The notes under the pieces are model-generated. The model was not told where the DNA came from and searched no databases. It saw nothing but the letters and a program-made list of their open reading frames with translations. A stretch of DNA of 64,000 nucleotides. Origin: an uncultured Desulfatiglans sp. GTDB taxonomy: Bacteria; Desulfobacterota; DSM-4660; Desulfatiglandales; Desulfatiglandaceae. A program made the position numbers and the translations under genes. Shown here piece after piece: positions 1,528-37,400 of the stretch (position 1 is the stretch's first letter; every line of letters begins with the position of its first letter). Location: the NCBI GenBank assembly GCA_900498135.1, contig LR026961.1:4251552-4315551 (forward strand). Direction: 5' to 3'.

Positions 1528-2382
1528 TCACCTGTATTCATGGAAGAACTCATTGTCAATTTCATAAATAGTTCGGGGTTTTAGCCCTAACGACGTCTGC
1601 TCAAAAAGTTTAACCAATTTGGAACCGTCAACCAGCTCAATCGGAGGTACGCCCTCCCGGATGGCTTCATTCTTGGCTTCTTGTGTAAACCGGCCGGTTG
1701 TTATAAAAATTCCCTTCTCTGCGCGGCCTTGCATAGCGCCCCTGAAATCCCGAACTTGAGATGAAGGGACTGCATCCTTATATCGTTTTGCCTGGAAGAT
1801 AACCTTCAAGCTTACGAGGGGGTTGATTTCAAGGATTCCTTCACCATCTATGCCTCCATCACCAGACCGCCCTTTCACCACAACTTTAATGAACCCCGAT
1901 GATCGAAGCAGCCTTTGGCAGAGTCTCTCGAAACCTTCCGGAGAAAGGGCTTTGAGGATCTCAATAAGTTCCGCTCCATGAGGCGCGCCTTGCTCTTCAT
2001 CAGTAATTATCGGTTTATTAGACCTTCGTTTGATGCGTTTTTTAGTTATAAAACCACTGTGAATCTTATGAAAAATCTCCTTTACATCTTGTTCTGTAAG
2101 ATGCCTGCGTAGTCCATCTTCGGTCAAGCGCCATACATGAGGGTCAGAAACATCAAGCAAACCTTCACGAGTCAAATAAGCCTTGGCCCAATTAATGAAC
2201 ATATCAACACGAAATACATTGTTACCAAAACGCTCCGATAGCTCATCCTCGCTTATTTCAAGGCTGACCACAAGTTCGTCTTTGAGCTCCGATGGACTGG
2301 CAGAGCCTCCAAGTTTTTTCAGGGCGTCTATTATGGGTAAAAAGAACTGAACAAGGGCAGGTAGATTCGGGCTTGTCTTCAT
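1528..2382 (-). CDS. Mrr-type restriction endonuclease with N-terminal winged helix
   Basis: A 284-aa protein. Residues 1-90 look like the Mrr N-terminal winged-helix domain (FFLPIIDALKKLGG...VFRVDMFINWAKAYLTREGLL). Residues about 140-270 form the Mrr catalytic PD-(D/E)XK fold: FERLCQRLLRSSGF, then SGDGGIDGEG (catalytic Asp), then VIFQAKRYK (the QAK form of the ExK motif), then GIFITTGRFT. Mrr enzymes cut modified, often methylated, DNA. The gene lies left of the attachment site, so it is probably chromosomal or part of an older island. A second protein of the same layout is at 38030-38935. Confidence 0.9.
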   Translation of the reverse strand: MKTSPNLPALVQFFLPIIDALKKLGGSASPSELKDELVVSLEISEDELSERFGNNVFRVDMFINWAKAYLTREGLLDVSDPHVWRLTEDGLRRHLTEQDVKEIFHKIHSGFITKKRIKRRSNKPIITDEEQGAPHGAELIEILKALSPEGFERLCQRLLRSSGFIKVVVKGRSGDGGIDGEGILEINPLVSLKVIFQAKRYKDAVPSSQVRDFRGAMQGRAEKGIFITTGRFTQEAKNEAIREGVPPIELVDGSKLVKLFEQTSLGLKPRTIYEIDNEFFHEYR

Positions 2383-3177: not shown

Positions 3178-4323
3178 ATGCCTGACAACCTCCAAAAAAC
3201 GAGACACGAAGGAACCTACGCCCGAGAATCCGCCAAAAAAAGATTCAAAGGCAAACCAGACCGCTGCTACTACATCACCTACCGAAACAAGCAACAAAAA
3301 TTCGTCAGAGAAAAAATAGGGTGGGCCTCAGAAGGATACACCCCCCAGATGGCCCACCAGATCAGGGCAGAGAGAATCCGGGCCATGAGGCACGGACAGG
3401 AACTCCCGCCCGACACATGGAAAACCGTCAGGACCCTCGACAGCGCCTGGGAAAAAGAATACCAACAAGAAAAGGGGCAGAAAAAGAGCTTCAGCGACGA
3501 CGAATACAGATACAACAAACATATAGCTCCAACACTCGGGGACCGCCTCCTCTCAGGCATCACGCCCCAAGACCTCAAGAAACTCGGAACAGATCTCAAC
3601 AAAAAAGGGTTATCCCCCCAATCCATCTACCATGTCCTTCAGCTAATCAGATCCATTTATAACGTCGCCAAGAACGAAGGAGCTTACTTCGGAGAGAATC
3701 CAGCCACAAAAATCAAGTTCCCCAGAATAACAAACAGCAACCGCCTCAGATACCTCACCCAGGCAGAATCAGACCGGCTCCTGGCAAAAATCAAGGAATC
3801 CAGCCAAACAATGTACGAAATCAGCTACATAAGCCTCTACACCGGCCTCAGAGCCAACGAAATCTTCTCCTTGAAGTGGCAGGACATAGACCTCGAACAG
3901 GGTATCATTAACGTCCTCGAAACCAAGAACACAGAGCCCAGGCCGGCTTATATGAACGAAGGAATCAGGGAAATCTTTGAGAACAAGAAAAAAGGGAATA
4001 AGACTGAGTATGTTTTTCCGCAGGAGCAGCGAAGAGACAAGAACAAGCCTAAAAAGAACCGGAAAAAGGAGGAAGTCAGCAAGACATTCTTCAGAGTCGT
4101 AGAGAAAATGGGGTTGAACGACGGCGTGGAAGACAGGCGGTACCGAGTGTGTTTTCACACCCTCCGCCATACATTCGGAAGCTGGCTCGCCATAAGAGGA
4201 GAGAGCCTGCAGACCATCCAGGAGCTGATGGGGCATAAACGGATTAGCCAGACGCAGAGATACGCCCACCTATGCCCGAACAAGAAACGCCAGGCAGTGG
4301 AAAACCTGGTAGGCCCAGAATAA
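3178..4323 (+). CDS. int: Tyrosine recombinase / integrase
   Basis: A 381-aa phage-type integrase. It has an N-terminal arm-binding region (about 1-60), a SAM-like core-binding domain (about 75-175, ending in LIRSIYNVAKNEG) and a catalytic domain. Catalytic residues seen are the Arg in YTGLRANEIFSLKW, HTLRH, GHKRISQT and the Tyr of QRYAHL. The gene starts 190 bp from the tRNA-Asp fragment and reads away from it, as in many genomic islands. Codons are A-rich and C-rich compared with the defence genes. It should catalyse integration and excision at tRNA-Asp, perhaps with the excisionase-like protein at 4753-4959. Confidence 0.95.
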   Translation: MPDNLQKTRHEGTYARESAKKRFKGKPDRCYYITYRNKQQKFVREKIGWASEGYTPQMAHQIRAERIRAMRHGQELPPDTWKTVRTLDSAWEKEYQQEKGQKKSFSDDEYRYNKHIAPTLGDRLLSGITPQDLKKLGTDLNKKGLSPQSIYHVLQLIRSIYNVAKNEGAYFGENPATKIKFPRITNSNRLRYLTQAESDRLLAKIKESSQTMYEISYISLYTGLRANEIFSLKWQDIDLEQGIINVLETKNTEPRPAYMNEGIREIFENKKKGNKTEYVFPQEQRRDKNKPKKNRKKEEVSKTFFRVVEKMGLNDGVEDRRYRVCFHTLRHTFGSWLAIRGESLQTIQELMGHKRISQTQRYAHLCPNKKRQAVENLVGPE

Positions 4324-11620: not shown

Positions 11621-11646
11621 CTCCATTAAGACGGGGCGTAATGGAG
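11621..11646 (+). promoter_or_regulatory. Leader hairpin overlapping the SD
   Basis: CTCCATTA (11621-11628) pairs perfectly with TAATGGAG (11639-11646). The 3' arm contains the first bases of the SD GGAGGTG for the gene starting at 11660. Folding would hide the ribosome site. Similar arrangements precede 13132 and 13993. Confidence 0.5.
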
Positions 11647-11659
11647 GTGTCCTAAGAAA

Positions 11660-12247
11660 ATGATTTGTGCAAGAAAGCAGATGAACATATCGGAGGAGGT
11701 TGATTGTTGGATTGCTGAGGAGGATTTGGCGTGGAGGCCGGGCCTGAAGGTGGAGAGGTATTCTGATTTTTTGGAGAACGATGATGGTTATTGGGATTTT
11801 ATCAGCTGGTTTTTGTGTCAGCCTTTCGCGGTTCTTGACTGCATTCCCGTAAGGAAAGAGGTTCGTTTTTGTGGGGCGGATCTTGATGAGTTCGGGAATG
11901 ATGTGTCGGCCTTTAACACCGTCGATTTTGTTCGGGAGAGTGGTTACGAGTTTGATTTGGAGGCATGGAGGACCCGTGAGGTTTTGGATAAGGTTGTGCA
12001 GATTGCTATAACGCATTCGGTTGTTGGGGACAGCGAGGCTAAGGAGAGATGCAGGGAGCGGTATGTCTGTTTGGTCGAGGCGGAGTTCCGGGATCGTGCT
12101 TTTGCGATTAAATCTAAATTGAGGAAAGCGAGGAGCGAACAGGCTGAGGAGAGCCTGAAGGAGCAGTTGCTTCGTTTGAATTATTGTTTGAGGAGGTGCA
12201 GGGAGGCGTGGAGGAGATACGCTGGAGATGGTGATGATGCTGGTTGA
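11660..12247 (+). CDS. Hypothetical protein, DEFGN-x-VSAFNTVDF family, copy 1
   Basis: A 195-aa protein of no family I recognise. A paralogue lies at 14937-15515. Shared features in order: a Trp-containing N-terminus (VDCWIAEED), YWDFISWFL, a hydrophobic segment AVLDCIP, the core DEFGNDVSAFNTVDF, a helical part with ALL/ITHS, EFRDRA, and a basic C-terminal helix (RLNYCLRRCREAW). No transmembrane segment or nucleotide motif is seen. This copy is G-rich (TTG, GTT and GAG codons) while the second is balanced, so the two diverged or arrived separately. The conserved core suggests a functional surface. Confidence 0.6.
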   Translation: MICARKQMNISEEVDCWIAEEDLAWRPGLKVERYSDFLENDDGYWDFISWFLCQPFAVLDCIPVRKEVRFCGADLDEFGNDVSAFNTVDFVRESGYEFDLEAWRTREVLDKVVQIAITHSVVGDSEAKERCRERYVCLVEAEFRDRAFAIKSKLRKARSEQAEESLKEQLLRLNYCLRRCREAWRRYAGDGDDAG

Positions 12248-12397: not shown

Positions 12398-12760
12398 TTA
12401 GCGGGGATTATAGGATAGGAAAGAATAAGATCGATTAGAATAAGATAAGAAATAAGGGAAATAGTATACACGTAGGGGCATCTTCGAGTACACACGTTCT
12501 TTTGTATTGATTCCCCTGTTATAGTTTTGTCTTCCTACCAGTGCATAGTACTCTATGCAGGCCCCGAGCTCCAGGAGATAGAAATCAGCATACCATAGGC
12601 GAGGCTTGTCATCGTCGGAGTTGATCAGGACCCCCAGTTCGTAGTGGTAACTGATTGAAGTGTACTCCAGAAAATTGGCTATTCGGCGTTCTCCTTCGGA
12701 TTTGAAGTTAGGGTCTTTATGGTTTCCGATCATGTCTTCAAGATTTCGGATCGAGCCCAT
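12398..12760 (-). CDS. Small PD-(D/E)XK-like nuclease, putative
   Basis: About 120 aa from the ATG at 12760 (MGSIRNLEDMIGN); an in-frame ATG at 12796 is also possible. The pattern GERRIANFLEYTSISYHYEL, then WYADFYLLELGACIEYYALV, then NYNRGINTKERVY matches the compact nuclease fold of Vsr-like and helicase-linked proteins (E, then DFYL, then an IEY strand). The expected Lys of ExK is Tyr here, so activity is uncertain. The C-terminal 25 residues are Tyr/Ser-rich and may be frameshifted. It stands alone, convergent with its neighbour. Confidence 0.45.
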   Translation of the reverse strand: MGSIRNLEDMIGNHKDPNFKSEGERRIANFLEYTSISYHYELGVLINSDDDKPRLWYADFYLLELGACIEYYALVGRQNYNRGINTKERVYSKMPLRVYYFPYFLSYSNRSYSFLSYNPR

Positions 12761-12796
12761 CGTAGGCCTTATGAAGAAAGGGAGATATTTAAACAT

Positions 12797-13131
12797 GAGC
12801 AGTCACTGGTAAGTGGCTAAAAAGAGTCTTCATGTTGTTGGACCAATTCGGAGCAGTGAAACGCACCCTTTGGTGCCTCCGATCTGATCGTTGTTTCTCT
12901 CCCTTCGGTTTTGTGGTTTTTGGGACACACGCAAACCCATTATCGTAAATCTTTCCCCCCTTCGGGGATCGGCTTTATCGGCCTAAAGATTTCCTCAAAG
13001 GGAAAAAGATAGCCTACGCGGCCTCCATTCGTTTCAGTCAAAACAACACATCCCTTCATGTTATGACCTAAACAGAGCCCCTTATTCAACTCCGTGCCCG
13101 ACATAATAAAAGGCACGGAGGATGATAAAAA
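12797..13131. other. Intergenic region with leader structures
   Basis: No gene. Contains a CCCC-TTCG-GGGG hairpin around 12956-12967 enclosed by complementary arms (AAATCTTT near 12945 and AAAGATTT near 12987). It ends with the SD-masking hairpin at 13090-13120. Probably the promoter and leader of the methyltransferase gene. Confidence 0.4.
13090..13120 (+). promoter_or_regulatory. Leader hairpin masking the SD of the methyltransferase gene
   Basis: CTCCGTGCC (13090-13098) pairs perfectly with GGCACGGAG (13112-13120) around a 13-nt A-rich loop. The 3' arm supplies GGAG of the SD GGAGG, eight to ten bases before the ATG at 13132. This would make translation depend on opening of the hairpin. 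Confidence 0.55.
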
Positions 13132-13968
13132 ATGGAAACCATAAAGACCTTGATTTTGGAATGCGTGGTTGGAAACAGTGCCCAGCATATCCGCGAGATA
13201 CACCTCAGGGTTTCTGAATTCAGGCCGGAGGTGCCTCAACATACTGTCAGAGCCAGGCTCTCCGAGATGTCCCGGAGTGATAACCTGGAGGAGAAGTTGA
13301 GCGCTTTTGGAAGCGGATTTTATGGCCTGTATCAAGAAAACAAGGAGATGTGCAGCGTCGTCTCATACGTCGACCGAGGCCCGTGGGGCGATTCCAAATA
13401 CAGGGGCAATTGTACCGGCCACCTCGTAAAGGACCTTATTTTGCGGTTTGACAGCAAAAGCGTTTTTGACCCGGCTGAAGGCGGTGGAACAGTGAGGGAT
13501 GTGGTCAGAGGCATCAACACATACCTCAAGCGCGAAATCCGTTACGAGGGCAGAGACCTGAACCAGGATTGGGACATCTTGACCAGCCGACTGCCGGAAA
13601 ACCAGTTTGATTTGGTCTTTTATCACCCCCCATACTGGGACATCATCAAGTATTCAGATAATGCCAAAGACCTCAGCAACTGCACAACACTGAATGATTT
13701 TGAACTCAAGTTGAATGGCTCTGTCCAGCGCCTTTTCCGCGTGGTCAAGCCGAATGGAATAATGGCGATTCTCATTGGCGATAAGCGCAGAACCGGACAC
13801 TACTATGCCTTGATGAGGACCTTGCTCATGAACAAAAACATTGGGCAGCTCAAGGCCGTCATCATCAAGATACAGCATCATTGCAGAAGCGATCGGAACT
13901 TTTACGGCGCAAACAATCCGTTTCTGATTCCCATCAAGCATGAATACTGCCTCATCTTCCAGAAATAA
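13132..13968 (+). CDS. Orphan DNA methyltransferase (N6-A or N4-C type)
   Basis: A 278-aa protein. Residues 1-70 are a winged helix (QHIREIHLRVSEF, then HTVRARLSEM). SAM-binding motif I appears as FDPAEGGGTVRDV (about residues 115-127) and catalytic motif IV as FYHPPYWD (about 163-170); VVKPNGIMAILIGD follows. PPY/W motifs mark amino-methyltransferases acting on A or C. There is no partner endonuclease next to it, so it is likely a solitary enzyme for self-protection or anti-restriction. The motif I sequence (DPAEGGG) departs from the usual DPFxGxG. Confidence 0.85.
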   Translation: METIKTLILECVVGNSAQHIREIHLRVSEFRPEVPQHTVRARLSEMSRSDNLEEKLSAFGSGFYGLYQENKEMCSVVSYVDRGPWGDSKYRGNCTGHLVKDLILRFDSKSVFDPAEGGGTVRDVVRGINTYLKREIRYEGRDLNQDWDILTSRLPENQFDLVFYHPPYWDIIKYSDNAKDLSNCTTLNDFELKLNGSVQRLFRVVKPNGIMAILIGDKRRTGHYYALMRTLLMNKNIGQLKAVIIKIQHHCRSDRNFYGANNPFLIPIKHEYCLIFQK

Positions 13969-14280: not shown

Positions 14281-14291
14281 AAACCTCGACT

Positions 14292-14420
14292 GTTGGTGCC
14301 ATTTCCTCGCTAAAAGTTCAAAATTGGCGCACTGAGATGAAGTCGAAAGCTTTCTCATCGCTCTCAGGAACAAAGACGTCCTGAGAGCGAGCAGAAGACC
14401 CGCTCCACGAGGTGATAGAA
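14292..14420 (+). ncRNA. Structured leader RNA, copy 1
   Basis: A leader homologous to the one at 14745-14936. A 5' TTGGTGCCA block can pair (GTGCCA 14296-14301 with TGGCGC 14325-14330, one G-U pair) and is followed by ACTGA. Next comes an 11-bp hairpin, CGCTCTCAGGA with TCCTGAGAGCG (14359-14389). A 56-nt block, 14361-14416, matches copy 2 with one change, in the loop. It ends at the SD GAGGTGAT of the gene at 14421. Likely a cis-acting regulatory RNA; ligand or protein partner unknown. Confidence 0.55.
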
Positions 14421-14636
14421 ATGGAAAAACTCAAAGGCATCAGGAAAGGCCGAATATGGCTGAACCTATTTAAGGCAGATGACGGAGAACTCATTGCCAC
14501 CGTCAACAAAACATACATGAACAAGGAAGGTAAATGGAATTATACCCCGTTCTTACATCCGAGACGTGGTGATATCGAGGATTTGAGGGATTGTATTTCT
14601 GAGTTCCACGAATTCGCAAAATCTTTCAAAATCTAA
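14421..14636 (+). CDS. Hypothetical small protein
   Basis: 71 aa from the ATG at 14421, eight bases after GAGG. An in-frame GTG lies at 14412. Mixed alpha/beta: GIRKGRIWLNLFKADDGELI, then a helical end (LRDCISEFHEFAKSF). Unknown family. It is preceded by copy 1 of the duplicated leader, so it is probably co-regulated with the 195-aa protein at 14937. Confidence 0.5.
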   Translation: MEKLKGIRKGRIWLNLFKADDGELIATVNKTYMNKEGKWNYTPFLHPRRGDIEDLRDCISEFHEFAKSFKI

Positions 14637-14744
14637 AAGCGTAGATGAAACTCTCTTTGTTCTTTTTTAGTCATATTTCCTCCTTTCCGGCCGTGGTCTT
14701 AAAACCCGAATGAGATTGACCTCCCCCAAAGCTTTGTTTCAACT

Positions 14745-14936
14745 ATTGGTGCCACTTCACGGCTAAAGATTTAAAAGGGGTATTTGCTCAATCGCAAAAC
14801 CCCTTTTTAAACCTTTCCCCCTTCGGGGTCGCCTGTGGCACACTGACCCGGATGCGATGAAAAAACCTTCTCCTCTCTCTCAGGAACAAAGATGTCCTGA
14901 GAGCGAGCAGAAGACCCGCTCCACGAGGTGATTCAG
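14745..14936 (+). ncRNA. Structured leader RNA, copy 2
   Basis: Homologue of the leader at 14292-14420. GTGCCA (14749-14754) pairs with TGGCAC (14836-14841). In copy 1 the partner is TGGCGC, so one A-T pair has become a G-T wobble and pairing is kept. Between the arms this copy has an extra terminator-like hairpin. The 9-bp hairpin CTCTCAGGA/TCCTGAGAG is at 14877-14903. The block 14877-14932 differs from copy 1 at one base. It ends at the SD of the gene at 14937. Confidence 0.6.
14773..14808 (+). terminator. Terminator-like hairpin inside leader copy 2
   Basis: AAAAGGGG-TATTTGC pairs with GCAAAACCCCTTTTT around a short TCAATC loop and ends in a run of Ts. It lies between the two halves of the leader that are contiguous in copy 1, so it could be an attenuator or the terminator of the upstream gene that has become part of the leader. 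Confidence 0.6.
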
Positions 14937-15515
14937 ATGAAAGAAAATATAGGTAAACAGGTAGACAGTTGGATACATGCAGAAGAGATTCCACCTCCAG
15001 CGAGTCTTAAGCCCGCATCAAAATGGGACGGACTGTATCCCGAAGATGAGGAAGAGCTTGAGGCTTACTGGGACTTCATCCACTGGGCGATGTCCCAGGA
15101 ACACGCAGTACTTCTCAGCATACCAAAACCCGAAAATGAATATGATTTCTGGGATGTTGAATTGGACGAGTTCGGCAACAATGTGTCCGCGTTCAACACC
15201 GTGGACTTTGAAAGGATGTATCCTCACGGGCTCAACAAATACGCTTACAGGCTCAAGAAGATTTTCGAGAAAGTAAACGACATGGCCCTTCTCCATAGCT
15301 GTATCAGTAACGATGAAGGGAAGAAGAACACTCACGAGAGATTCAAAAACCTGGTTGAGAACGAATTCAGAGATAGGGCAGCAATGCTCCTTGAGACACT
15401 CAGGCAATACGGGGTTTGGGTGGACAAAGCCAGGATTTTCAGAGAGATTGCAGCGTTAAACGGGCGGATAAGAAAGTGCAACCAGATATGGCAGGAACAT
15501 GCCTACCAAGGTTGA
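14937..15515 (+). CDS. Hypothetical protein, DEFGN-x-VSAFNTVDF family, copy 2
   Basis: 192 aa from the ATG at 14937, which follows GAGGTGATTCAG. Paralogue of 11660-12247: VDSWIHAEEI, then YWDFIHWAMSQEHAVLLSIP, then LDEFGNNVSAFNTVDFERM, then LLHSC, then EFRDRAAML, ending IRKCNQIWQEHA. Conserved aromatic and acidic residues around DEFGN suggest a binding or catalytic pocket, but no known fold is visible. Its stop overlaps the start of the next gene by 17 bp. Confidence 0.6.
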   Translation: MKENIGKQVDSWIHAEEIPPPASLKPASKWDGLYPEDEEELEAYWDFIHWAMSQEHAVLLSIPKPENEYDFWDVELDEFGNNVSAFNTVDFERMYPHGLNKYAYRLKKIFEKVNDMALLHSCISNDEGKKNTHERFKNLVENEFRDRAAMLLETLRQYGVWVDKARIFREIAALNGRIRKCNQIWQEHAYQG

Positions 15516-20591: not shown

Positions 20592-23174
20592 ATGGCCAAA
20601 AAATACGATCCGAAAGCTGGAAGCCTTTTCAAGAAGGAAGTCCCCGAAATGCCGGAGGGATACTATTCCGGCGACAAGCCAAACCCGAACCTGCGGGCGT
20701 TCGTCGAGCAGCATATCAAGGAGCGGCCCTACGACCCTGAGACCGACGACTATGATGTGCCCGCATTCGACAAACCCATTGAGAGCACCAAAGCCACGGC
20801 AATCTACAACATGCACACCTACTGGTCGAAGAAGCCTCACGACGCCATCCGTCAGTATGTTCGGCACTATACAAAATCCGGCGATCTCGTGCTCGATCCC
20901 TTCTGTGGATCGGGTGGCACGGCCCTGGCAGCGCTTATGGAAGGCCGCAAGGCCATTGCCATTGACCGTTCCCCGGCCGCAACTTTCATCACCAAGAACT
21001 ACTGTACACCAGTGGATGTGGATGGACTTCATAAAGCCTTCGAGGAACTCAAGCGCAAAGTCAAGCCGGAGATCGACTGGCTTTATGAAACTCGATGTGA
21101 CCGCTGCGGCGGGAAGGCGACCACTGCCTACACGGTGTATTCCCAGGTCTTCCAGTGTCCGCGGTGTTTAGAAAAGGTACCGCTGTTCGACTGTGTTGAG
21201 GTCGAAGGAACGACTGCCAAGGGTAAATCCAAGAAGATCCGGGCCTGTCCTCACTGTCATAAGAGGGACATTGTGGAGGAGATCAGCACGCGGGCGGATA
21301 AGTTTGGCGCGGTGCCAGTATTGGTGAGCTACCTCTGTGAAAGCGGATGCCGACCTGCCCGCGACGAGCGGAGCCACAATGACTCAAACAAAAAGAAACA
21401 CGAATACTTCGAGAAATATGACCTTGGGAAAATCCGGGAGATTGAGGCGAAAGATATTCCGCATTGGTATCCCAAGAATCGGATGATGAATGCTCCCGAG
21501 GATCAGAAATGTTGGGGTGTCAAGTGGCGTGCTGGAACGAGCAACTTCCGCACAATTGATGAACTCTTCACCAAACGCAATTTGTGGGCTCTGGCGGCGA
21601 TAAGAGATGGGTTAGAGGTTTCTTCGAAGAGAGATATTCTTCTTTTCGCTTTTACCGGAATATGCCTTGGTTTCAGCAAGATGTGTCAGTGGATACCAGG
21701 CGCATCATATCCTTTCCCAATGATGCGCGGAACTTACTACATGCCGCCTATCTCAAAGGAACAGTTGGTTCCTCATTACTATGAAAACCGAATTAATCTG
21801 ATTCAGAGAGCAGCCGCTCAAATATCATTTGATTCGGTATCTTTGTTCGTTTCGACTCAAGATATATGTAATCTCTCCAATATTCCATCAGCAGCTTTAG
21901 ACTACATTTTCACTGACCCTCCGTATGCAGAAAAGGTCCAATATGGTGAGCTGAATTTCATTTGGGAGGCATGGCTCGGTTTAGACACGCAATGGCAAGA
22001 TGAGGAGATAATTGTCAACGAAGTTCGTGGTAAAACCGAGGACGACTGGGCATATATGATGCGCCAGGCAATGTCCGAGTGCTATCGGGTTCTGAAACCT
22101 GGACGATGCATTTCGCTTTGTTACCACGATACATCAGAAGGCACTTGGTCGTTGGTGCAGGATATCATGGCCGAAGCCGGTTTCATCGTCGAGAAATCGG
22201 ACGCTGCCCTCTATATTGATACCGGGCAAAAGTCGTATAACCAGCTTGTGGCTGACAAGGTCAACAAACGCGATCTCGTAATCAACTTCCGAAAGCCCAA
22301 ACCCAGTGAAGTAAAGGCTATCATCGCCATCACAGGAAACGAAGACAAAACAACCTTCACCGAAAAGGTCTGCCAGATTATTCGGGATTATGTTGGCGCG
22401 AATCCCGGCACTGCGAAGGACCGCATCTATGACGAGGTCGTCAGCCGTATGGTTCGCAGCGGGCAGATGGAGGCGCATGACTTCGATGAACTCCTTCGAA
22501 CAGTGGCTGAAGAAGTTAAAACGCCGGTAATGAAAAACCTGTTTGAGCAGAAAGACCCTGATATCTTTGGCACGCACGAGGTTGGCCGCTGGTACTTGAA
22601 AGAGACCGAACTGGTTATTGCCGATGCCGCCGAAAACGCCCGAGAGGATGCTGCCGCAGAAAAGACCGGCGCGTTCATCACAAAATTTCTCGAAAAGAAC
22701 CCTGGAGATGAAGGCGTCCACTACAGTGATATCTTCGAACACTATATCTACGCAGTGAAGGACAAACCGCGGCGTCAACTGGCAGAATTCCTGCCGGACT
22801 ACTTTTACAAGACCGAGCAAGGCACATGGCGGCTTCCCGGCTCCGAGGAGGAGGAAAAGGCCAAGCGTGAGGCACGGGTTAAGGGTCTGGGTAGGCGGGT
22901 TAAACGCTATATTACCCAGCTCGAACAGGGCGCGTTGCTTCCCGACCATGAACGTCCAAATGACGCCACCCTCGCTGAATGGATACGCCACTGCAAGCGG
23001 GCCGGATTGTATGAACAGGGCAAGCTTTTGTACGAAAAGGGTGGACTCAATCCTGATAACCTGTCCGAGGAGGCGATGGTCAACGTCGAGGAAGATTACC
23101 AGGTTTGCGCACGAATGCTGGCACGCGAAGCAAGCCAGCCTCAGCGTCGCGGCAGGAAGAAAGCGGAGGAATAA
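20592..23174 (+). CDS. BREX-associated DNA methyltransferase with zinc ribbons
   Basis: An 860-aa protein. SAM motif I is LDPFCGSGGTALAALMEG (about residues 97-114) and catalytic motif IV is FTDPPYAEKVQYGEL (about 437-451). Between them is a zinc-binding insert (CDRCGGKATT, FQCPRCLEKV, ACPHCHKRDI). A YWSKKPHDAIRQYV segment near residue 75 is typical of DUF1156-like methylases. The C-terminal 300 residues are helical. It plays the role of PglX: host DNA modification that marks self. It differs from PglX of type 1 systems, which is about 1200 aa and has NPPY. Confidence 0.85.
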   Translation: MAKKYDPKAGSLFKKEVPEMPEGYYSGDKPNPNLRAFVEQHIKERPYDPETDDYDVPAFDKPIESTKATAIYNMHTYWSKKPHDAIRQYVRHYTKSGDLVLDPFCGSGGTALAALMEGRKAIAIDRSPAATFITKNYCTPVDVDGLHKAFEELKRKVKPEIDWLYETRCDRCGGKATTAYTVYSQVFQCPRCLEKVPLFDCVEVEGTTAKGKSKKIRACPHCHKRDIVEEISTRADKFGAVPVLVSYLCESGCRPARDERSHNDSNKKKHEYFEKYDLGKIREIEAKDIPHWYPKNRMMNAPEDQKCWGVKWRAGTSNFRTIDELFTKRNLWALAAIRDGLEVSSKRDILLFAFTGICLGFSKMCQWIPGASYPFPMMRGTYYMPPISKEQLVPHYYENRINLIQRAAAQISFDSVSLFVSTQDICNLSNIPSAALDYIFTDPPYAEKVQYGELNFIWEAWLGLDTQWQDEEIIVNEVRGKTEDDWAYMMRQAMSECYRVLKPGRCISLCYHDTSEGTWSLVQDIMAEAGFIVEKSDAALYIDTGQKSYNQLVADKVNKRDLVINFRKPKPSEVKAIIAITGNEDKTTFTEKVCQIIRDYVGANPGTAKDRIYDEVVSRMVRSGQMEAHDFDELLRTVAEEVKTPVMKNLFEQKDPDIFGTHEVGRWYLKETELVIADAAENAREDAAAEKTGAFITKFLEKNPGDEGVHYSDIFEHYIYAVKDKPRRQLAEFLPDYFYKTEQGTWRLPGSEEEEKAKREARVKGLGRRVKRYITQLEQGALLPDHERPNDATLAEWIRHCKRAGLYEQGKLLYEKGGLNPDNLSEEAMVNVEEDYQVCARMLAREASQPQRRGRKKAEE

Positions 23175-23177
23175 GTC

Positions 23178-26100
23178 ATGGCCGATGATCTTTTTACCAA
23201 CAGAAAAAACCTCTCCGAGATCTGCACGGTCCCGGACAAGATTATTTCCGTCTATTCTCTGGAAAAGCATGTCTGGGCCGACTCGAACTCCGAGGCCAGC
23301 CGCAAGGTGCGCAAACCGGAGTTGCAGACCATCGAGGAGTTTCAGATCGATCCGGTTCGGCCATTCCTTACGGACATTTTGCGAAATATAGCCGCCCCCT
23401 GGAAACGGGAGCGCAAAGATAATCCGGTTGGCCAGGGGTATTGGATTCAGGCTGAGTTCGGCTCCGGTAAATCGCATCTACTCTGCTGTCTTTCCGCCCT
23501 GGCTTTGGGACGGAAAGAGGCCTGGGAGATCGTCAAGAAAAAAGAAGACGCCTCCGGACGGGGCAAGCGTGAATCCCTTTTCCGCTTCTGGGAGGAAGGA
23601 ATCGAGGCCAAAAGCGGCAAGGGAACCAAAGGCATCTTTGTCATCGTCAAGACGCTTGTGGGGGCAGGTAGCGGGACAGTGGGCCTGACCGACAAGGGTC
23701 GGCGGCTCTCCGAGTACATCCTTGATGCTGCCAAGGAGCAAATCCAGGTCGAACTCGGCAAGAACATTTCCCTGTATCCGGTTGAGCTGTTGGCGGACCG
23801 GTTCATCTCAAAAGATCTGGACCTTTATCGGAAGAAACTCGCTGCATTTCTTCGGGACCCAAAGTACTTTGATGAAGATGAATTTGAGGAGGTCGATGAT
23901 TTTATCCGGACTATCCAACAGAACAAAACGCCCGAGTATAAGAAAAGTTGCGGCAACAAGCTATGGCAATTTTATAACGAATACCTCGAAGTTACTCCCC
24001 AGATTGCAGCTGAGACCGAAGACATCCTCAAGCACATGACGGAGACGATCCTGGCTGAGGGGTATAGTGGGGTTCTATTGGTTCTGGATGAGGTGTCCCT
24101 GTTCATGAAGAACCGGGACGAAGACCAGCGAACTGACGATGAGAAAACCCTGGTCGTACTATCGAACCGGCTTGGAAAAATCCACAATCTACCTGTCTGG
24201 ACAGTCTGCGCAGCTCAGCAGGCCATTGAGAGCAAGATGGGCGTCAAGAACATCATTGCTGACGATCGGCTAAAGCTGGTGAAGCTGCTCGAAGAAGACA
24301 AGGATTATTACGACATTGTCCTGGCGCGCGTGCGGGAGATCAAGGACCCGGCTGCCATCAGCAATTATTATCTCCATTACAAGCGAGGATTTACCTGGCC
24401 GAACAGCATCGGCGAGCCGGACTTCCGGCACTTCTTTCCTTTCCACAAACCCGCTATCGAGGTCTTGCGGGCGATTACCTACGAGTTGACCACGACTCGC
24501 TCAGCGATCCACTTCATGCATCAGACCTTGAAACACCAGATCAAAAGCAAGGGTCGCGAACTCATACGACTGTGGGAGCTGTTTGACGAAGCCGTGCGAT
24601 ATGAAGAAGATCCGAGCGGGGTCCATGCGGGGCTGGTGGCCATCAAGACAAAGCGTGAGACGGAATATCGGGCTTACGAAGCATGCAAACGCCAAATTGA
24701 CGGCCTGACCAAGGGCTATCTGAAGGTACACCGTGACAAAGGCGTCAAGGTCATACAGACTCTCTTCCTCTATCATATTGCCCGCACCCGCCAACAGGGT
24801 ATCACACCGGAAGATATTGCCAACTCGGTCCTCATCGAGCGGGAGGCCGACGCCAATCCGGATGAAAATATCCAGCATTATGAAACCATCGCTGACAACC
24901 TCAAGAAGGAATTACGACAGATCGTCCAGGCCTTCGACGAGGAGAAGCGACCCAGATACCGCTTTGATCCCGTTTTTACCGGGGTTGATCCTAGGGATGA
25001 GTTCAGCAAGGCCAGAGACGAGGCAGAATCTAACGAGGCCATGCAAAAGGAAGCGTGGGACCACCTCCTGGCGCTTGACGAGTGGCCGGTGCGCACGCGC
25101 CAGATGACCATCGATTTGTCCAGCGGCGTTAGGTCAACATTCAGGGACATCGCTCCGTTCATTGCACCATGGGAGGACCGAGGCGCTGCACGTTCCGGGG
25201 ATCAAAATCTGGATGTGATCTGGCAGGGGCGGCAGATTTCCGGACGGGTGGGGATGCGCGATCTCGGGCGAATGTTCTCCGAAAATTTGCCGCTACCACC
25301 CATTGAAAGCGATCAGACAGATCTTGATTTCGCGGTATATATTGGCACACGCCACGTCGCGGACGCATCTGTGCTCAAGCTGATCGAGCGGCGCAAAGAC
25401 CCTCGTGTCCTTCTCTGGACCCCGGCCGAGTTGACCCAGGAAGAACGTGATCGACTTGTCGACTTTGCCGCCTATCGCAAGCTCATCTCCGACTGGCAGG
25501 GAAAGGAAACCGAGGATGCTGTGGCGGTGGTGAACTGGGTATCCAACGCGCTCCAATCAGACCTCGCCAAGATCGTAAAGATCGTAGACAACAGTTATGC
25601 CCGGGGGCGTATAGATGCACTCAACAACACTCAGATGGCCTTTCGCGTGGCTGGCGAGCTGGCGGCCATCCTTACGCCCTTGGTGGATCGAGTGCTCACG
25701 GCAGCTTATGTGTCCAAGGACATCAAGTTCGATCCGCCTTTTGTATTCCGCAAGGAAGAAGGGGTAAAGGTCATCAACGGCATCGTAAAGACGGGGCGTA
25801 TTCCCAAAGGGGCAAAACCCAATCAGAACATCAGTGCCGCCCAGAATTTTGGCTTTGGCCTGAACATTATGAAAAAAAGCGCCGAAAAGGAACTGGATGT
25901 TTCGAGCAACGCCTATGTTCAGGACATGTGGACTTTCATAGACGACAAGTTGACCGACGACGGACAAACCATGAAGATGGACACCCTTTATAAGAATTTC
26001 ATGGGCATCGGCGGTCCGAAGGATTATGGACTCACACGGCGTATGGTTCAGCTCTACATGCTCTGCCTGGTTCGGGAGGGGCGTGTGCGGGTCACTATGG

Positions 26101-27515
26101 GAGCGAAGGCCGGGCTTGCCGTTTCCATACTCGATTACTCGAACATAACCGATGTGGAATTCTCTACCAAGGTTCTGGATGCCTTAGGCGAGATTCAGAA
26201 AGTGGCCAAACCTGAGAACTGGGAGGTCTTGAGACCCTATGCGGAGAAACTGCTCAGCATCGAAATTCCCACGACTCAGGATGACGCCGTGATTTCGGAA
26301 CATCGGGCCAGACTTCGACAACTGTTCGCCCAGGAAAAAGAGTCATCCTCACGGATGGCAAGTCGGGCACAGAGTCTTTTCGAAGCATTGAAGACCACCA
26401 ATCCCTATGAAACTGAACTGGCGCAGGTCGTGAAGCTTTTTTCCGCAAATATCGAGAGTGGCGACGATATACACCTTCTTCTGTATGCTCTTAAAGAGGC
26501 CATGGGGTATCAGGCCTTTGATACGAACATAGCGGCCCCTGCCGAGGTAGATGATCTTGCCAATCGAATGAAAAACTATAGAGACATTCGGACCTTCCTT
26601 GAATACGAGGCCGAGCTTCGAACAGCTCATGCCTACTGCACGATCACACTTGGGGACCAAAAAGAACTGGCCCAGGCCCGAAAGTCCGTTGAGACCGTTC
26701 GAGCCAAGCTTGGCAGCCTGAAAGACTATATCGATTCCGACGTCAAGTTGAAGACCGAGCTCGTGGGGCATTTCCCGCCTGTCGAGGGGGAAAAAGACAC
26801 AATTGCCGCGATGATCCGCGAATACTCATCTGTATACCTGCCGATGCACGAATCCGTGGTGAACAGAATCGATACCAGCCGAAAGCGGATTCTGGATGCA
26901 ATGACGGGCGCTGACATCAAGGTCCTCGGCGTTCTTGACGGTATCACGGCGCTCCAACCAGCAAACACGGACAAGCTGATAAGCCGCTTGAATCAACTTC
27001 TCGCAGGGGTGTTCGAGTGTCCGTCGCCCTCTCGGGCTTCAGTCGAGGATCACCTTCGCAGCGGCCCGCTCCATGAATGCGGTTTATCGTTTGTGAATGC
27101 GCCGACCCACGCGCAAACTGCTGACAGAGTCGCCAAAATGGCCGCCTACTTGCTCGATGAGGCGTTTCGGAGAAAAATGGAGGTGTTTTTGAATCCTGCC
27201 GTGCGGGAACGCCTAGAGCAGGGCAAGTCGGAGGAAGCCATCGCTGAGCTTTTGGCATGCAGGACCACCGACAAGCTTCGTACTTATTTTGTCAAAACTA
27301 TCCCGGAAACGCCTCAGATTGTGGACATTATCAACAAGTACCTCAAGCGTATCGTTGTGAAGCGGGTCAGAATGGCCGATTTCAGGCCTAAAACAGGTAC
27401 CATCCAAAAGGACCAGGTTGGGAACGTGGCGGAGGAATTCGGCCGTTTCCTGGAATCCCAGTTCACCGATAACGAGGGAGACGACGACTCCCTTCCAATG
27501 CTTCAGTTGGAATAG
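23178..27515 (+). CDS. BrxC/PglY-like P-loop ATPase (DUF6079-like)
   Basis: A 1445-aa protein. Walker A is GYWIQAEFGSGKSHLLCCL (about residues 93-111), and Walker B is GVLLVLDEVSLFM (about 298-310). A long helical C-terminal region follows. Size, P-loop and neighbours fit the BrxC/PglY family of large BREX ATPases. The exact subfamily (DUF499 or DUF6079) needs a profile search. The gene is intact and 11 bp from pglZ. Confidence 0.8.
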   Translation: MADDLFTNRKNLSEICTVPDKIISVYSLEKHVWADSNSEASRKVRKPELQTIEEFQIDPVRPFLTDILRNIAAPWKRERKDNPVGQGYWIQAEFGSGKSHLLCCLSALALGRKEAWEIVKKKEDASGRGKRESLFRFWEEGIEAKSGKGTKGIFVIVKTLVGAGSGTVGLTDKGRRLSEYILDAAKEQIQVELGKNISLYPVELLADRFISKDLDLYRKKLAAFLRDPKYFDEDEFEEVDDFIRTIQQNKTPEYKKSCGNKLWQFYNEYLEVTPQIAAETEDILKHMTETILAEGYSGVLLVLDEVSLFMKNRDEDQRTDDEKTLVVLSNRLGKIHNLPVWTVCAAQQAIESKMGVKNIIADDRLKLVKLLEEDKDYYDIVLARVREIKDPAAISNYYLHYKRGFTWPNSIGEPDFRHFFPFHKPAIEVLRAITYELTTTRSAIHFMHQTLKHQIKSKGRELIRLWELFDEAVRYEEDPSGVHAGLVAIKTKRETEYRAYEACKRQIDGLTKGYLKVHRDKGVKVIQTLFLYHIARTRQQGITPEDIANSVLIEREADANPDENIQHYETIADNLKKELRQIVQAFDEEKRPRYRFDPVFTGVDPRDEFSKARDEAESNEAMQKEAWDHLLALDEWPVRTRQMTIDLSSGVRSTFRDIAPFIAPWEDRGAARSGDQNLDVIWQGRQISGRVGMRDLGRMFSENLPLPPIESDQTDLDFAVYIGTRHVADASVLKLIERRKDPRVLLWTPAELTQEERDRLVDFAAYRKLISDWQGKETEDAVAVVNWVSNALQSDLAKIVKIVDNSYARGRIDALNNTQMAFRVAGELAAILTPLVDRVLTAAYVSKDIKFDPPFVFRKEEGVKVINGIVKTGRIPKGAKPNQNISAAQNFGFGLNIMKKSAEKELDVSSNAYVQDMWTFIDDKLTDDGQTMKMDTLYKNFMGIGGPKDYGLTRRMVQLYMLCLVREGRVRVTMGAKAGLAVSILDYSNITDVEFSTKVLDALGEIQKVAKPENWEVLRPYAEKLLSIEIPTTQDDAVISEHRARLRQLFAQEKESSSRMASRAQSLFEALKTTNPYETELAQVVKLFSANIESGDDIHLLLYALKEAMGYQAFDTNIAAPAEVDDLANRMKNYRDIRTFLEYEAELRTAHAYCTITLGDQKELAQARKSVETVRAKLGSLKDYIDSDVKLKTELVGHFPPVEGEKDTIAAMIREYSSVYLPMHESVVNRIDTSRKRILDAMTGADIKVLGVLDGITALQPANTDKLISRLNQLLAGVFECPSPSRASVEDHLRSGPLHECGLSFVNAPTHAQTADRVAKMAAYLLDEAFRRKMEVFLNPAVRERLEQGKSEEAIAELLACRTTDKLRTYFVKTIPETPQIVDIINKYLKRIVVKRVRMADFRPKTGTIQKDQVGNVAEEFGRFLESQFTDNEGDDDSLPMLQLE

Positions 27516-27526
27516 GAGGGGAGTCG

Positions 27527-30436
27527 ATGCTTTCAAGTTGGGTCATCGATAAGTTGGAGGCGATGAAAGATGAGCAGATTCTGCTTGTCCAGGATTCGCT
27601 TCGACTTCTTCCTGAAGCCGACGGCGCTGTCCACCGGTTCGCCAATGAAAGCGGGTTTACGGTCATCATTGCCTCCACAAACCTAGTTTTCAGAGAACTC
27701 TTTGAAAAGGCAACCGTTTCAAAGGAGACAAAGAAGCTGCTTCTCATAGATCGCGCACCAGCACGAAGGCGGGCGCATACTTCTCTGACAAAAGCGCCGC
27801 CCCCCTTCTATCCTGATCTTCTTTCCAGAACAGCGGACACAGCGCGAATCGACATAAGCCTCCGGCAGTTCTTGATCGAAAAGACCGGAGACCCCAACTG
27901 GCCTCAAGAGGCCAATAATCCACGGTTTGCGAGGCTGATTACGGGTTCTATGGAAGCCGTGCTGAAGGCACACGCGAGCCTGCGTGTGGCCCATCCGACT
28001 CGGTTCACGGATCACGATTTCAAGACCATTGTTGCCTATTCGGCATTGGGTGTTCCTGACGCGGCTTTCAAACGGCCTGAGGCGAAAAGCTACTGGCGCA
28101 TCGCGCTTATCGGATACCCAGCTCTCGAAGAACTCGATTCGCTTGCTCCAGAAGTGGCACGTTCCATCCGAGACGAGCTGCGCATCGCCCCTGCCCCATT
28201 CTGCTGGTTTGCGGACTCTCCGCCGGAATTGATTGTCAAGGCCTTCTATCTCGCAACCATATTGTCCCAGCACATCGAGCATTGGAAACTCCTGCTGACC
28301 AGCATTGACCCAGACCTCAAGGCTTTCAGCGAAATGGACACAACTCTAGTTGCCAAAGCCGCACCTGAACTTGTGTCGATTGACCCCCATAGGGCTAACC
28401 GTGATCTTCTGGAAGTTGAAGCGTCGCTTTCCAAGGATATGCTCAACCTTATCCTTCTCGACCAACTGAAACTTATCACCAACGGGCGATTTGCAGAAGT
28501 TATTGAAAGCGAGCATTATTCGGTCCTCATTCGATCCCTTGCTCTTTTGGTCGGTCTGGACAGTCTCATTTCAAACACTCCGCCCCTCGCTTCACATGAG
28601 AAACTCAGTCATGTCCTCTTTGGAGAGTCGGATGGAAAAAAGGACCTGTTTATCGAACAACGACCATCGCAGGCCTGGGAGAATCTAAAGGCGGCATATG
28701 GCCTGGTTCGATCAATACGCGACATCCGTGATGCCTTGGATGAAGCTGTCAAGCATCTGATTGTGAAACCAACCTCCGAATTGACTTTCAGGTGGTTCCG
28801 ATCCTTATGGAATGATCGACGGGTCAACCGCTTGGAGTTTTACCTGTCTGCTCTGGAGCGTTTGGTTTTCAGCGTGGATTTTCTCCCGCGTGCGGCCAAG
28901 GATCTGCCGCCTGATTTTCTGGCCGCCCAGGACCGTATTCTACACCGTGTGGGCTCACTGAGGGACGAGATACAAGAGGCACTTTCAGTTTTGAATACAC
29001 GATACCAGGAACTGGTAGCTGCACAATACCAATCGTGGGTTGCTTCAGATTCCTCCGAGGTACGATTAACCAGCCATTTCTTGCGGCGCTGTCTGAAGCC
29101 CAATTGGGACCCAGAAAGCGAGAAAGCCGTGGTATTTGTGTTCGACGGCATGCGTTACGACATATGGGATGAACTGGTCAGGCCCATTTTTGAGGATCGC
29201 ATGGAGATCATCGCGGATTATTCGGCTACGTCCCTTTTGCCCTCAGAGACTCACATCAGCAGAAAAGCGATTTTTGCCGGGACGTTCCCCGATTCCTTCG
29301 ACACTAAACGCGGCGAGGACGCTCTTCTCAAAGAAGCCATGCAACGGGAATTTGGATATACCGGGGATGTCGAAGTCGTGGCCCCCGATGGTATGGGAAC
29401 CGGCGAGACCGTTCGGTATCGCGCAAAAAATATCGAGTTTTTCATTTTCGAACTCTGTGACAAGGAACTCCATAAAATTCCGGTGAAAACGCTACATGAT
29501 GGTCGTTGCGTGCCCGGACGTCCTCTTTCATTCATCTATCAGCAACATATCAAAGACATAATTGACACCGAAGTCATGGCCATAGTCCGGGGTCTTGAAC
29601 CGGATACGAAGGTGTTTGTAGTGGCTGACCATGGGTTTGGCGCTATCGGTCGCGAGCGCATCCGGGTAGATCTAAATTGGCTGAATGAGCCTTTCGATTG
29701 TTTTTATCTGAACGCATGGCTCAGACAGACGCTGGCTGATTCCCGCGCACCACGAAAGGTACGCGATAATGTTTTGGAGTTTTCAGTCGGTGATCTGCGT
29801 ATACCAAGTTCAGGGGACGCTTATGACCGGACCACAAAACAGAGCTGGCAAAAGAAGTTTGAATCCATTGTTTTCCCCAAAACTGGCTATGCCCTGGCGC
29901 GACCAAAAGCCAAATTTAGTCCTGATGCATTTTCACATGGTGGGATTTCGATCCAGGAAATGCTTGTGCCTATGCTCGCCATGCGAGTGAAGGCACCGGA
30001 GGAAGGTTTGCTGGTCCTTGCCCCGATTTCCGGGCCAGCGGACCTCATTGAAGGAGAAGAAGCCGAGTTTAAGATGCCTGTTAAATTTACGGAACCCCAT
30101 AAGCATAGGGAGGTTCGGCTCGAAGCCCACGCCGTGTATCAGAACAAGGAAACAACACCAGCATTGCCTTCCCAGGTTCAATATATCTCTTCCTCGGGAG
30201 GGGATGTCGTCTTTCGGTTTGTTCCAGATGCGATCGACGCATCGGATGAAGAGCGAAAAACGGGTATTATGGAACGGATGCTGAGGATCAGCGTCACGTA
30301 CCGTGAGGCGCAACGCTTGGTGAGAAAGGCGCGGGCTATTCGATTCTCTATGCGATTGAATTCAGAAAGGATTGTTCGCAGAGTCCCAGCACATCTTGGG
30401 AAGATTTTAGGTTTGACTCCGAGGAGCATGAGATGA
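27527..30436 (+). CDS. pglZ: PglZ alkaline-phosphatase-fold BREX protein
   Basis: A 969-aa protein with the PglZ domain at about residues 535-800. The first metal-site motif is [15 protein letters not shown], followed by [16 protein letters not shown] (nucleophile region) and [15 protein letters not shown] (DHG metal ligands). N-terminal region: helical, of unknown role. PglZ is a hallmark of BREX systems. The stop codon overlaps the start of a 33-codon frame (ATGA) that leads into brxL. Confidence 0.9.
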
Positions 30437-34349: not shown

Positions 34350-34462
34350 ATGACCCTCACCAAATCCAGCTTAATCGACAAAAGCCAAACCGAAATCAGG
34401 CTCCCCAAGAGGTACCTCACAGGCCCTCGAAACCACACTGAAAACCATCAAACGAAAACTTG
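34350..34462 (+). pseudogene. 5' remnant of an HU/IHF gene
   Basis: ATGACC-CTCACCAAATCCAG and the following bases match the first 30 bases of the intact HU/IHF gene at 37719 (MTITKSNLID there, MTLTKSSLID here). After a degraded stretch, CCCTCGAAACCACACTGAAA again matches. The frame is shifted, and the second half of the gene is missing. The upstream leader (CGTACAAGGGACGAAAT) also resembles that of the intact copy. Border between the CBASS and SIR2 modules. Confidence 0.85.
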
Positions 34463-34477
34463 AAGGGAAATATAAGG

Positions 34478-37400
34478 ATGATTGAGATACCACTAGGTCT
34501 TAGGACTGCATTAGAATCCGGCGATTGTGTGCTTTTCATTGGCGCCGGGATTGGGAGGCACCTTTTTGACGAAGCTGGTAACACAACTCCTGACGGTGCG
34601 TCTCTGGCGAAAGAACTCGCTGATCACTTTGAGATTGAAACCGGCGGTTCCTATGACTTGGCAAAGATCTCGAGAGTCGTGGAAATAAGAAAGGGTCGAA
34701 CCGAGTTGATCGCCTTCTTGCACAGACGCCTGGCAAACCTTACTCCTGACGAAGACTTCCAGTGGTTGAGCACACTTAGGTGGAAGGCGATCTATACGAC
34801 AAATTATGACAATGGTATTGAGCGTGCCTACGAACTGTCATCAGACCCCCCTCAAAATCCAGTTACTTTGACTGTTACTTCTGATCTGGTATCCTACAAC
34901 CCTCACTTCGAGCTTCCAGTCTATCATCTCCACGGAGCCTTATTTTCTGCTTTTGAGCCAAGCATTGTTATTACTGAGGACGATTATGCAAGGTTTAAAG
35001 AGCGGAGAAGAATGCTCTTTGAGCTCCTCAAGAAGGATTTTGCTACCTCTCCAGTCCTTTACATCGGTTACTCAAACCGTGATCCAAACTGGAATATGGT
35101 CATTGCCGAGATAAGCTCAGAATTCTATCCATCAAAGCTTCCGCGATCATACCGGATAGCCCCAGATACAGAACCAATCGATATCGAGATACTCCGTGAG
35201 AAAAACATAGAGACGCTTAGCGCGTCATACGGGGAGTTCCGTGCGGCTGCCTCCGTTATGCTCTCGGAGCAAAAGATAGATCCTAGTATTCTGCAAAGAA
35301 TCGAACAACAGGTGCCTGTCGATCTAATGCCTGCATTTTCAAAAAGCCCCGCAGCACTCGTTAGACTTCTTACCTCTTGGACTTACGTGAACCAGGCCCC
35401 CTTTCATGAGAATCCAAACGTCTATAGTTTTCTTAGAGGAAATGAGGCGAACTGGGCTTTGATAGGCCGTAAACACTATTTTCAGAGGGATATTGAAGAA
35501 GAAGTCTATGAGGATTTATTAGACTATGCCACAGGCACGAGAGAGATACCCCGTATGAGAATCGTCCTTGGGCCGGCAGGGTACGGGGTCACGACTCTAT
35601 TAAAGATCTTAGCAGTGAAGCTAGTCAAAGAAAAAGCAGGCCCAGTATTTATGCTCAAAACAGGAAGGGCCTTTTCAGAAGGGGACATCGAATTCGCGGT
35701 TTCGCTATTTCCTAATACACGGCCTTTCTTCATAATTAATAATGCATCTGACCATGTTTCACGGATAACCGATATCTTTCATCAACTTAAGGAGGCACAT
35801 AAGAATTCGCTGTTTCTCCTCGGAGAGAAATTGAATGAATGGCGACAAGCTCACGGCAGGCTTAACCCAAAAGAATATCAACTAGAATCTCTGAGTGATC
35901 CTGAAATTAACCGTCTGATAGACTGCCTCGACCAACACTCCGAACTTGGAGTCCTGGAACCACTGAGCAGGGAACTCCAATTTGCAGCTATCCGACAAAA
36001 GCATGGTAAAGAACTATTGGTCGCAATGCGGGAAGCCACAGAAGGGAGGAGCTTCGACGCGATACTAGAGAGCGAATATCGTGGAATCAATAACAATACA
36101 GCCCGTCGTCTCTATTTGTCCGTATGTTGCTTTCACCAGCACGGTGCCCTTGTTCGTGACTCACTCTTGGCCGATCTTATGGAGACCTCGCTTTCAGAGC
36201 TCTATAATGAGACACGCGATGCAACCGAAGGAGTAGTTATCTATGATTGTCTTGATGAAGTGACTGGGACGTTCGTCGCAAGGTCACGCCACAGGACTAT
36301 CGCAACGGTTGTGTGGGAGAGATGCGGATATCCGGATGAGAAGGAGCATCTAATACAGGGAGCTTTATCTACTCTAAATCTTAACTATAAGACAGATAGA
36401 GATTCGCTCGAATATTTTATTCGTTCAGACCATCTTATAGATAGCATCCGAACTTTAGAGGGAAGAATAAGATTCTTTGAGACTGCCTGCAAAAAGGACC
36501 CTGAAAGCCCCTACGTTAGGCAGCATTTTGCAAGAATGCTATTACGTTCAGGCAGATTTGAGTTGGCGTTGAACCAAATAGATGAGGCTCTCATTCTCAA
36601 TCCAAATGGGTTGGTATTGCATCATACTAAAGGGATTATCCTTATGCATCTTGCCCTTTCGATTGAAAGCCATGAAATTGCGAGGCGGAGACTTGCCCAA
36701 AGCGAGTCGAGCTTTCGGAGATCTCTAAGTATCTATCCAAAGCATGAATATAGCTATCAGGGTCTTGCCCAACTTTACCTTGGTTGGGCAAAGAAGGCTC
36801 CCACTGAAGAAGAGTCTACCGAGTACGTTTCAAAAGCGGAGGAAACAATTAGCGAGGGTCTCAGGACGGTCCGCGTGCGTGACGGACTTTGGATTGAATC
36901 CGCAAATATCCAACGATGGCTAGGTGACGAGCCATCCCGGTTAAGCGCACTCGAAAAAGCAGTAGAAAGCCATCCTGGCAGTATCGTTGCAAGGTACTTG
37001 CTCGGAAGAAGTTACCGAAGAAGCGGTTCCCCTGAGAAGACGCTCAAGGTGCTTGAACCGGTGATAAAAGACCACCCTGATGAATTTCGATCGTTCGTAG
37101 AGTATGCAAATGCCCTAATATATCTGAAAAGACCATTCAAAGAAGCGATAGCTGTTTTGAGATTGAGTACACTTTATGGGTTCGGTGACCCCCGTTTTAT
37201 AGCCACATTGGGTGGGCTGCTCTTCTTAGAAAGGGAATTCACTGAAGCGAATTCTGTTTTCAATGAATCGGCAAAGCGAAACTTTTCTGGTCGGGAACTG
37301 AATAGCGTGCAATTTTGTCCTCCAAATCCTGATAATCTTAGCGCAGACATTCGTGTCGTCGGCACCGTCATAACAGTGAAAGCTGGATATGCCATCGTTG

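Follow-up and report, generated by a model that had tools for sequence, protein, structure and literature searches.

A structured three-way junction in two circular permutations ahead of genes of bacteria and a few DPANN archaea

Introduction

In the genome of an uncultured Desulfatiglans sp., two leaders that share a 56-nt block each stand ahead of a different gene, which raises the question of what the duplicated structure is, on which strand it folds and what could read it. The original prediction took the pair for two copies of one structured cis-regulatory leader RNA of no recognised class, with a hairpin and a long-range GTGCCA/TGGCRC pairing that survives a change from A to G. We addressed this question in the window, i.e., the whole stretch of 64,000 nt that was analysed (contig LR026961.1), and in searches of further genomes and contigs.

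The available portions of two reports (PMC11541004, PMC9849209) describe expression of the leading region of conjugative plasmids from Frpo/ssi single-stranded DNA (ssDNA) promoters, which gives a precedent for a mechanism. Two motifs in the accessible text of PMC2864571 also bear on the locus: STAXI (RF01728), which lies near SSB, anti-restriction and integrase genes and for which the authors considered an ssDNA role, and the Rhodopirellula-1 candidate motif, a cis-regulatory motif of Proteobacteria and Planctomycetes.

Results

Composition of the two leaders

The 56-nt block is common to both leaders with a single base change, located in the hairpin loop, and its hairpin arms are as originally described; neither half of the block was reproduced by any shuffle of the window. 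What had been taken as one leader unit is two separable modules joined together, a three-way junction and a hairpin plus SD, and the 56-nt block is the latter (Table 1). The junction of leader 2 is about 100 nt in size and is built from a base helix (GTGCCA/TGGCAC), a GGC/GCC arm, a hairpin arm (CCCC..GGGG) and a long arm (AAAG..CTTT), the long-range GTGCCA/TGGCRC pairing being the base helix. As sense RNA it folds at −39.2 kcal/mol (z −5.2), which was matched by none of 200 shuffles. The pairing region of leader 1, in contrast, folds no better than chance (z −0.3), so we read leader 1 as a relic in which two arms were lost and the base helix was left. The leaders are thus not the equivalent copies that had been supposed, and of the two only the second holds the complete structure. 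The A-to-G change does keep the pairing on the + strand, as a G-U pair, but on the − strand the pair is broken. A further, worn copy stands ahead of a methyltransferase gene, with the long arm open and the GGC/GCC arm closed.

Table 1 Positions of junctions, hairpins and genes in the window
Feature	Position	Strand	Remarks
Mrr nuclease gene	1528-2382		
Integrase gene	3178-4323		
Hairpin before the 192-aa paralogue	11629-11651		CTCCATTA/TAATGGAG, covering the SD
Paralogue of the 192-aa gene	11681-12244		without junction
Small endonuclease-like gene	12401-12796		homologues near elements in G028 and G072
Worn form B	12922-13018	−	circular permutation; ahead of DNA methyltransferase gene
Hairpin over SD of methyltransferase gene	13090-13120		CTCCGTGCC/GGCACGGAG
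Methyltransferase-like gene	13132-13968	+	behind the form B copy
Leader 1, relic of form A	14286-14334	−	retains the base helix, with the long and hairpin arms deleted
Base helix of leader 1	14296-14301, 14325-14330		GTGCCA opposite TGGCGC
Hairpin-SD module 1	14355-14416	+	CGCTCTCAGGA/TCCTGAGAGCG, GAGC..GCTC, SD GAGGTGAT
56-nt block, leader 1	14361-14416		
Gene after leader 1	14421-14636	+	71 aa
Intact three-way junction, form A	14744-14845	− (better-folding strand)	leader 2; downstream gene on +
Base helix of leader 2	14749-14754, 14836-14841		GTGCCA opposite TGGCAC
Hairpin-SD module 2	14870-14932	+	near-identical to module 1
56-nt block, leader 2	14877-14932		
Gene after leader 2	14937-15515	+	192 aa
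BREX-like set	20592-30436		methyltransferase, BrxC/D-like ATPase, PglZ
SIR2-nSTAND-TPR gene	34460-37540		after the BREX-like set

Homologues and their spread

The 56-nt block occurs twice in its own 4.8-Mb genome and as DNA has no match among 196 relatives; relatives of the element could be reached only by searching with the protein encoded downstream or with a structural model. The 192-aa protein has relatives in three other genomes (197 searched), and upstream of these stands the architecture of the window leaders (form A) together with a second arrangement, in which a small loop closes the GGC/GCC arm and the long arm is left open (form B). A search of 84,980 genomes for the shared-core pattern returned 30 stretches, 23 of them judged genuine and seven dropped for want of the partner arm (L132, L133, L135, L141, L143, L146, L156). 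By record title the genuine stretches belong to Deltaproteobacteria, Desulfobacterales, Phycisphaerae and other Planctomycetota, Latescibacterota, Gemmatimonadetes, Poribacteria, Nanoarchaeota and Diapherotrites, with the reservation that most element-bearing records are MAGs and individual taxon assignments may be wrong. Desulfosarcina cetonica and NaphS2 are the named isolates among the element-bearing records.

With covariance models, form A was matched in 6 of 85 genomes of its own class (two of these weak), in 6 of 336 genomes of its own phylum (the own genome alone strong) and in 4 of 309 genomes of a sample of the Nanoarchaeota phylum (one strong), and form B in 13 of 347 genomes of a planctomycete class. 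Among 20 element-bearing genomes the models R2 and R3 had matches in 9 and 14, respectively, at one to six per genome when partial matches on the wrong strand are included. Probable chance matches (L120, L121, L224-L228, L230) were set aside, as were L190 and L191. On the two Diapherotrites contigs, a weakly scoring form B is followed by small proteins that resemble each other. The element family, with its two permutations, spans bacteria and a small number of DPANN archaea, and its patchy distribution is that of a mobile feature.

Neither the block nor the leader, as DNA queries, found anything in phages, plasmids or viral contigs, and a tblastn search of plasmids with the 192-aa protein and a Replic_Relax protein was likewise empty. 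A loose 17-nt pattern gave 101 stretches in viral contigs, and none of the viral loci checked by script had the downstream core. The improved pattern had one viral match (L127), judged to be due to chance.

Circular permutation and covariation

Forms A and B are circular permutations of each other. They have in common the junction strands GSC-T-AAAG / CTTT-CCCC / GGGG-TC-GSC and, in part, the distal end of the long arm (GGGTYYGCT opposite CGCARACCC). In the form B alignment (A7, 25 distinct rows) 91.8% of cells are paired and 24 of 35 base pairs show double changes, and the corresponding values for form A (A8, whose 27 distinct rows include partial matches on the wrong strand) are 88.7% and 23 of 33. 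No measure was equalled in either alignment by any of 500 shuffles, and pairing dropped to 33-58% when the alignments were slid. A7 and A8 were fitted to covariance models; the alignments A5 and A6, made without a model, agree with them (94.3% and 83.8%), their covariation score being reached by 0 of 500 shuffles. Both the homologues and the covariation that the original prediction would have looked for, with covariance models and genome searches, are thus present. The base helix varies as GTGCCA/TGGCAC, GGTTTT/AAAACC, GGCAA/TTGCC and GGACGG/CCGTCC, and the inner helix as GGC/GCC or GCC/GGC.

Junctions conserved under circular permutation are rare in nature, and such conservation indicates that the fold itself is the thing read. 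In one contig (L211, about 1405-1594) two form B elements stand directly in tandem, an arrangement that is a possible route to the permutation.

Which strand folds

Folded as RNA, 30 of 33 elements are more stable on the template strand, taken with respect to the downstream gene, by a mean of 5.1 kcal/mol where random windows also differ between strands (sd 6.7 kcal/mol); folded as DNA, all ten chosen pairs agree. Wobble pairs lean the same way, with 61 on the template strand vs 32 on the sense strand in all kept rows and 37 vs 10 in the stronger rows, the weak L229 (24.4 bits) being retained in the count over all kept rows and the short L223 left out of it. Counted on the template strand as G-U vs A-C, form B has 36 vs 17 (24 rows kept, 3 dropped; a single pair supplies 16 of the 36) and form A 25 vs 15 (22 rows kept, 5 dropped), and the higher-scoring rows have 17 vs 3 and 20 vs 7, respectively, all from rows and elements that are related. 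The single form B pair is G-U in 16 rows, A-U in 5 and G-C in 2 (23 of 23 rows), and would therefore be A-C in 16 rows if read on the sense strand. The strand argument is softened by R2 and R3 having been built on the template strand. UNCG-type RNA loops and C(GNA)G DNA hairpins are both unusually stable, and the C(UNCG)G loop carried on the sense strand by 16 of 43 elements suits either a sense RNA or, as C(GNA)G on the template strand, a DNA hairpin. We lean towards the template strand, which is probably the one that folds.

With the wobble and energy bias directed to the template strand, the junction fits ssDNA or an antisense transcript better than the leader RNA first proposed. That proposal holds better for the hairpin-SD module, for which a sense leader RNA is quite plausible.

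The hairpin-SD module

A hairpin of 10-14 bp, variable in sequence, separates the junction from the SD and reads CTCTCAGG/CCTGAGAG or CCCTCTCTGG/CCAGAGAGGG in eight Desulfobacterota leaders and GGTTCGC/GCGAACC in 12 planctomycete leaders, each with small variants. Its 3' arm can alternatively pair downstream, in a hairpin that stops immediately short of the SD; the SD itself is left unpaired in 17 of 24 segments (two segments were not properly scored by the script). Against composition shuffles the mean z is −1.2, which is suggestive and not proof. The hairpin stretch is without strand preference, the sense strand being better in 16 of 41.

Position and gene neighbours

An SD-preceded start codon lies within 350 nt on the gene side of 36 of 41 elements, vs 5 of 41 in the opposite direction. 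The distance from element to start has a median of 91.5 nt (range 46 to 333 nt), and that from junction to start is 40-140 nt in 31 of 36; a looser scan placed an SD start within 420 nt for 41 of 43 elements. Genes downstream include RadC, methyltransferase and the 192-aa family, which recurs behind elements in Desulfobacterota and Planctomycetota, as well as small helical-looking proteins in several phyla (a family judged by eye). The 192-aa product has no Pfam family over cut-off and a poor AlphaFold model (mean pLDDT 68.8, pTM 0.49), and the 71-aa product shows weak similarity, at 16-25% identity, to members of a small family near elements of other phyla. A homologue 48% identical to the window methyltransferase is encoded on a Phycisphaerae contig bearing form B. 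Replic_Relax, integrase, HerA-like ATPase and ArdC N-domain genes were also found on element contigs, and the element-bearing DNA looks like that of mobile elements.

An integrase gene of Desulfosarcina cetonica (L194, 6909-13420) precedes three form A elements, and a + strand gene follows each of them; minus-strand genes separate the elements, and a short RadC comes after the last.

Comparison with known systems

Rfam 15 gave no matches at gathering score in the window and 19 loci, in agreement with a structure that had not been recognised, and a known ribozyme is rejected on the same scan, which included the self-cleaving classes; in lax scans the sole matches, all well under cut-off, were to miRNA, Xist and flavivirus-element families. 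Integron attC sites carry the R-box consensus RYYYAAC / GTTRRRY, and such a pair was found in none of 46 elements on either strand. The radC RNA motif (RF01754) is a structured motif that stands before radC, integrase, methyltransferase and anti-restriction genes, and is thus similar in its gene neighbours; its model scored over cut-off in none of 16 element-bearing genomes, and none of the weak matches listed lies on an element. STAXI resembles the element, in the accessible text of PMC2864571, in its anti-restriction and integrase neighbours and possible ssDNA role, but is a repeated pseudoknot, and the Rfam scans of the window and 19 loci found none. Rhodopirellula-1 is alike in phyla and cis-regulatory class, a comparison by its listing in that text, with no Rfam entry listed.

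The likeness to Frpo/ssi lies in a fold, here probably on the template strand, ahead of putative leading-region genes, in several copies per element and in neighbours such as methyltransferases and anti-restriction genes. The Frpo stem, however, rebuilds −35 and −10 boxes, whereas a gene-ward −35/−10 pair (9 of 12 positions) was found in 0 of 46 elements, and the elements described here have a different fold, a wider spread and archaeal copies. They are not filed as Frpo, since the defining boxes are absent; another factor would have to read the fold. A literature search, with subscription journals and supplements largely outside its reach, returned no description of the element, and within the literature searched the junction is a real, undescribed family of structured elements.

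Discussion

The explanation that we tentatively favour is that the junction is a leading-region-type ssDNA signal, Frpo/ssi-like but working without −35 and −10 boxes. The junction would fold while the element is single-stranded, on entry into a new cell or during replication, and would offer a docking site to a factor encoded by the element or by the host. Once bound, this factor could initiate transcription or primer synthesis in the direction of the neighbouring gene, and establishment genes (methyltransferase, ArdC-like, RadC and small unknown proteins) might thereby be expressed early; in the mRNA, translation may then be tuned by the competition of two hairpins for one arm immediately ahead of the SD. 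Transfer of a single DNA strand is an assumption here, because the proteins scanned yielded no relaxase, oriT or mating system. A host sigma-70 ssDNA promoter is unsupported, given the lack of gene-ward −35/−10 pairs and of any sigma-70 promoter found around the window element, and copies in archaea speak against any single host polymerase.

A sense leader RNA, in which the junction is a 5' UTR aptamer or protein-binding site and the competing hairpins are its expression platform, is a serious if unlikely candidate. The constant position, about 90 nt ahead of SD starts, the SD left free by the competing hairpins, the UNCG-type loops and the good folding of the sense strand in leader 2 all agree with it. 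They have to be set against the wobble and energy bias toward the opposite strand, the lack of strand preference in the hairpin stretch itself and the separability of the junction from the hairpin module, with 46 to 333 nt to the start. The same strand bias would suit a − strand antisense transcript lying opposite the 5' UTR, comparable with plasmid copy-number control and at home in a plasmid-like setting. We consider this quite improbable, as a cis-antisense RNA would not be expected to keep one fold ahead of unrelated genes and in different domains, and no promoter was found around the window element. It is also improbable that the junction is a recombination or replication site acting as folded DNA (an attC-like cassette site, a transposon end or a single-strand origin), with its position before genes a by-product. 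Several copies per locus, tandem copies in L211, L218 and L214 and the integrase upstream of the three copies in L194 speak for such a site, but the R-box pair is absent and the distance to the start is tighter than a cassette boundary requires.

The ssDNA signal could be taken further, to a cross-domain class of structured ssDNA gene-start signals in two circular permutations, with which mobile elements of bacteria and DPANN archaea would express establishment genes before the second strand is made, via a factor of their own. We regard this extension as rather unlikely. Being common to bacteria and archaea and associated with neighbours of anti-restriction type, the element offers a way to find establishment genes in mobile elements that are little characterised, and to test concretely whether genes are expressed from single strands beyond enterobacterial plasmids.

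The surroundings of the leaders in the window hold further hairpins and genes (Table 1). The 192-aa gene has a paralogue without the junction, preceded by a hairpin that covers its SD, and a small endonuclease-like gene lies between this paralogue and the worn form B. An Mrr nuclease gene, an integrase gene, a BREX-like set and a SIR2-nSTAND-TPR gene lie further out. The hairpin arms over the SD of the methyltransferase gene recur in NaphS2 (L005, about 1443-1478, opposite strand) ahead of the homologous gene.
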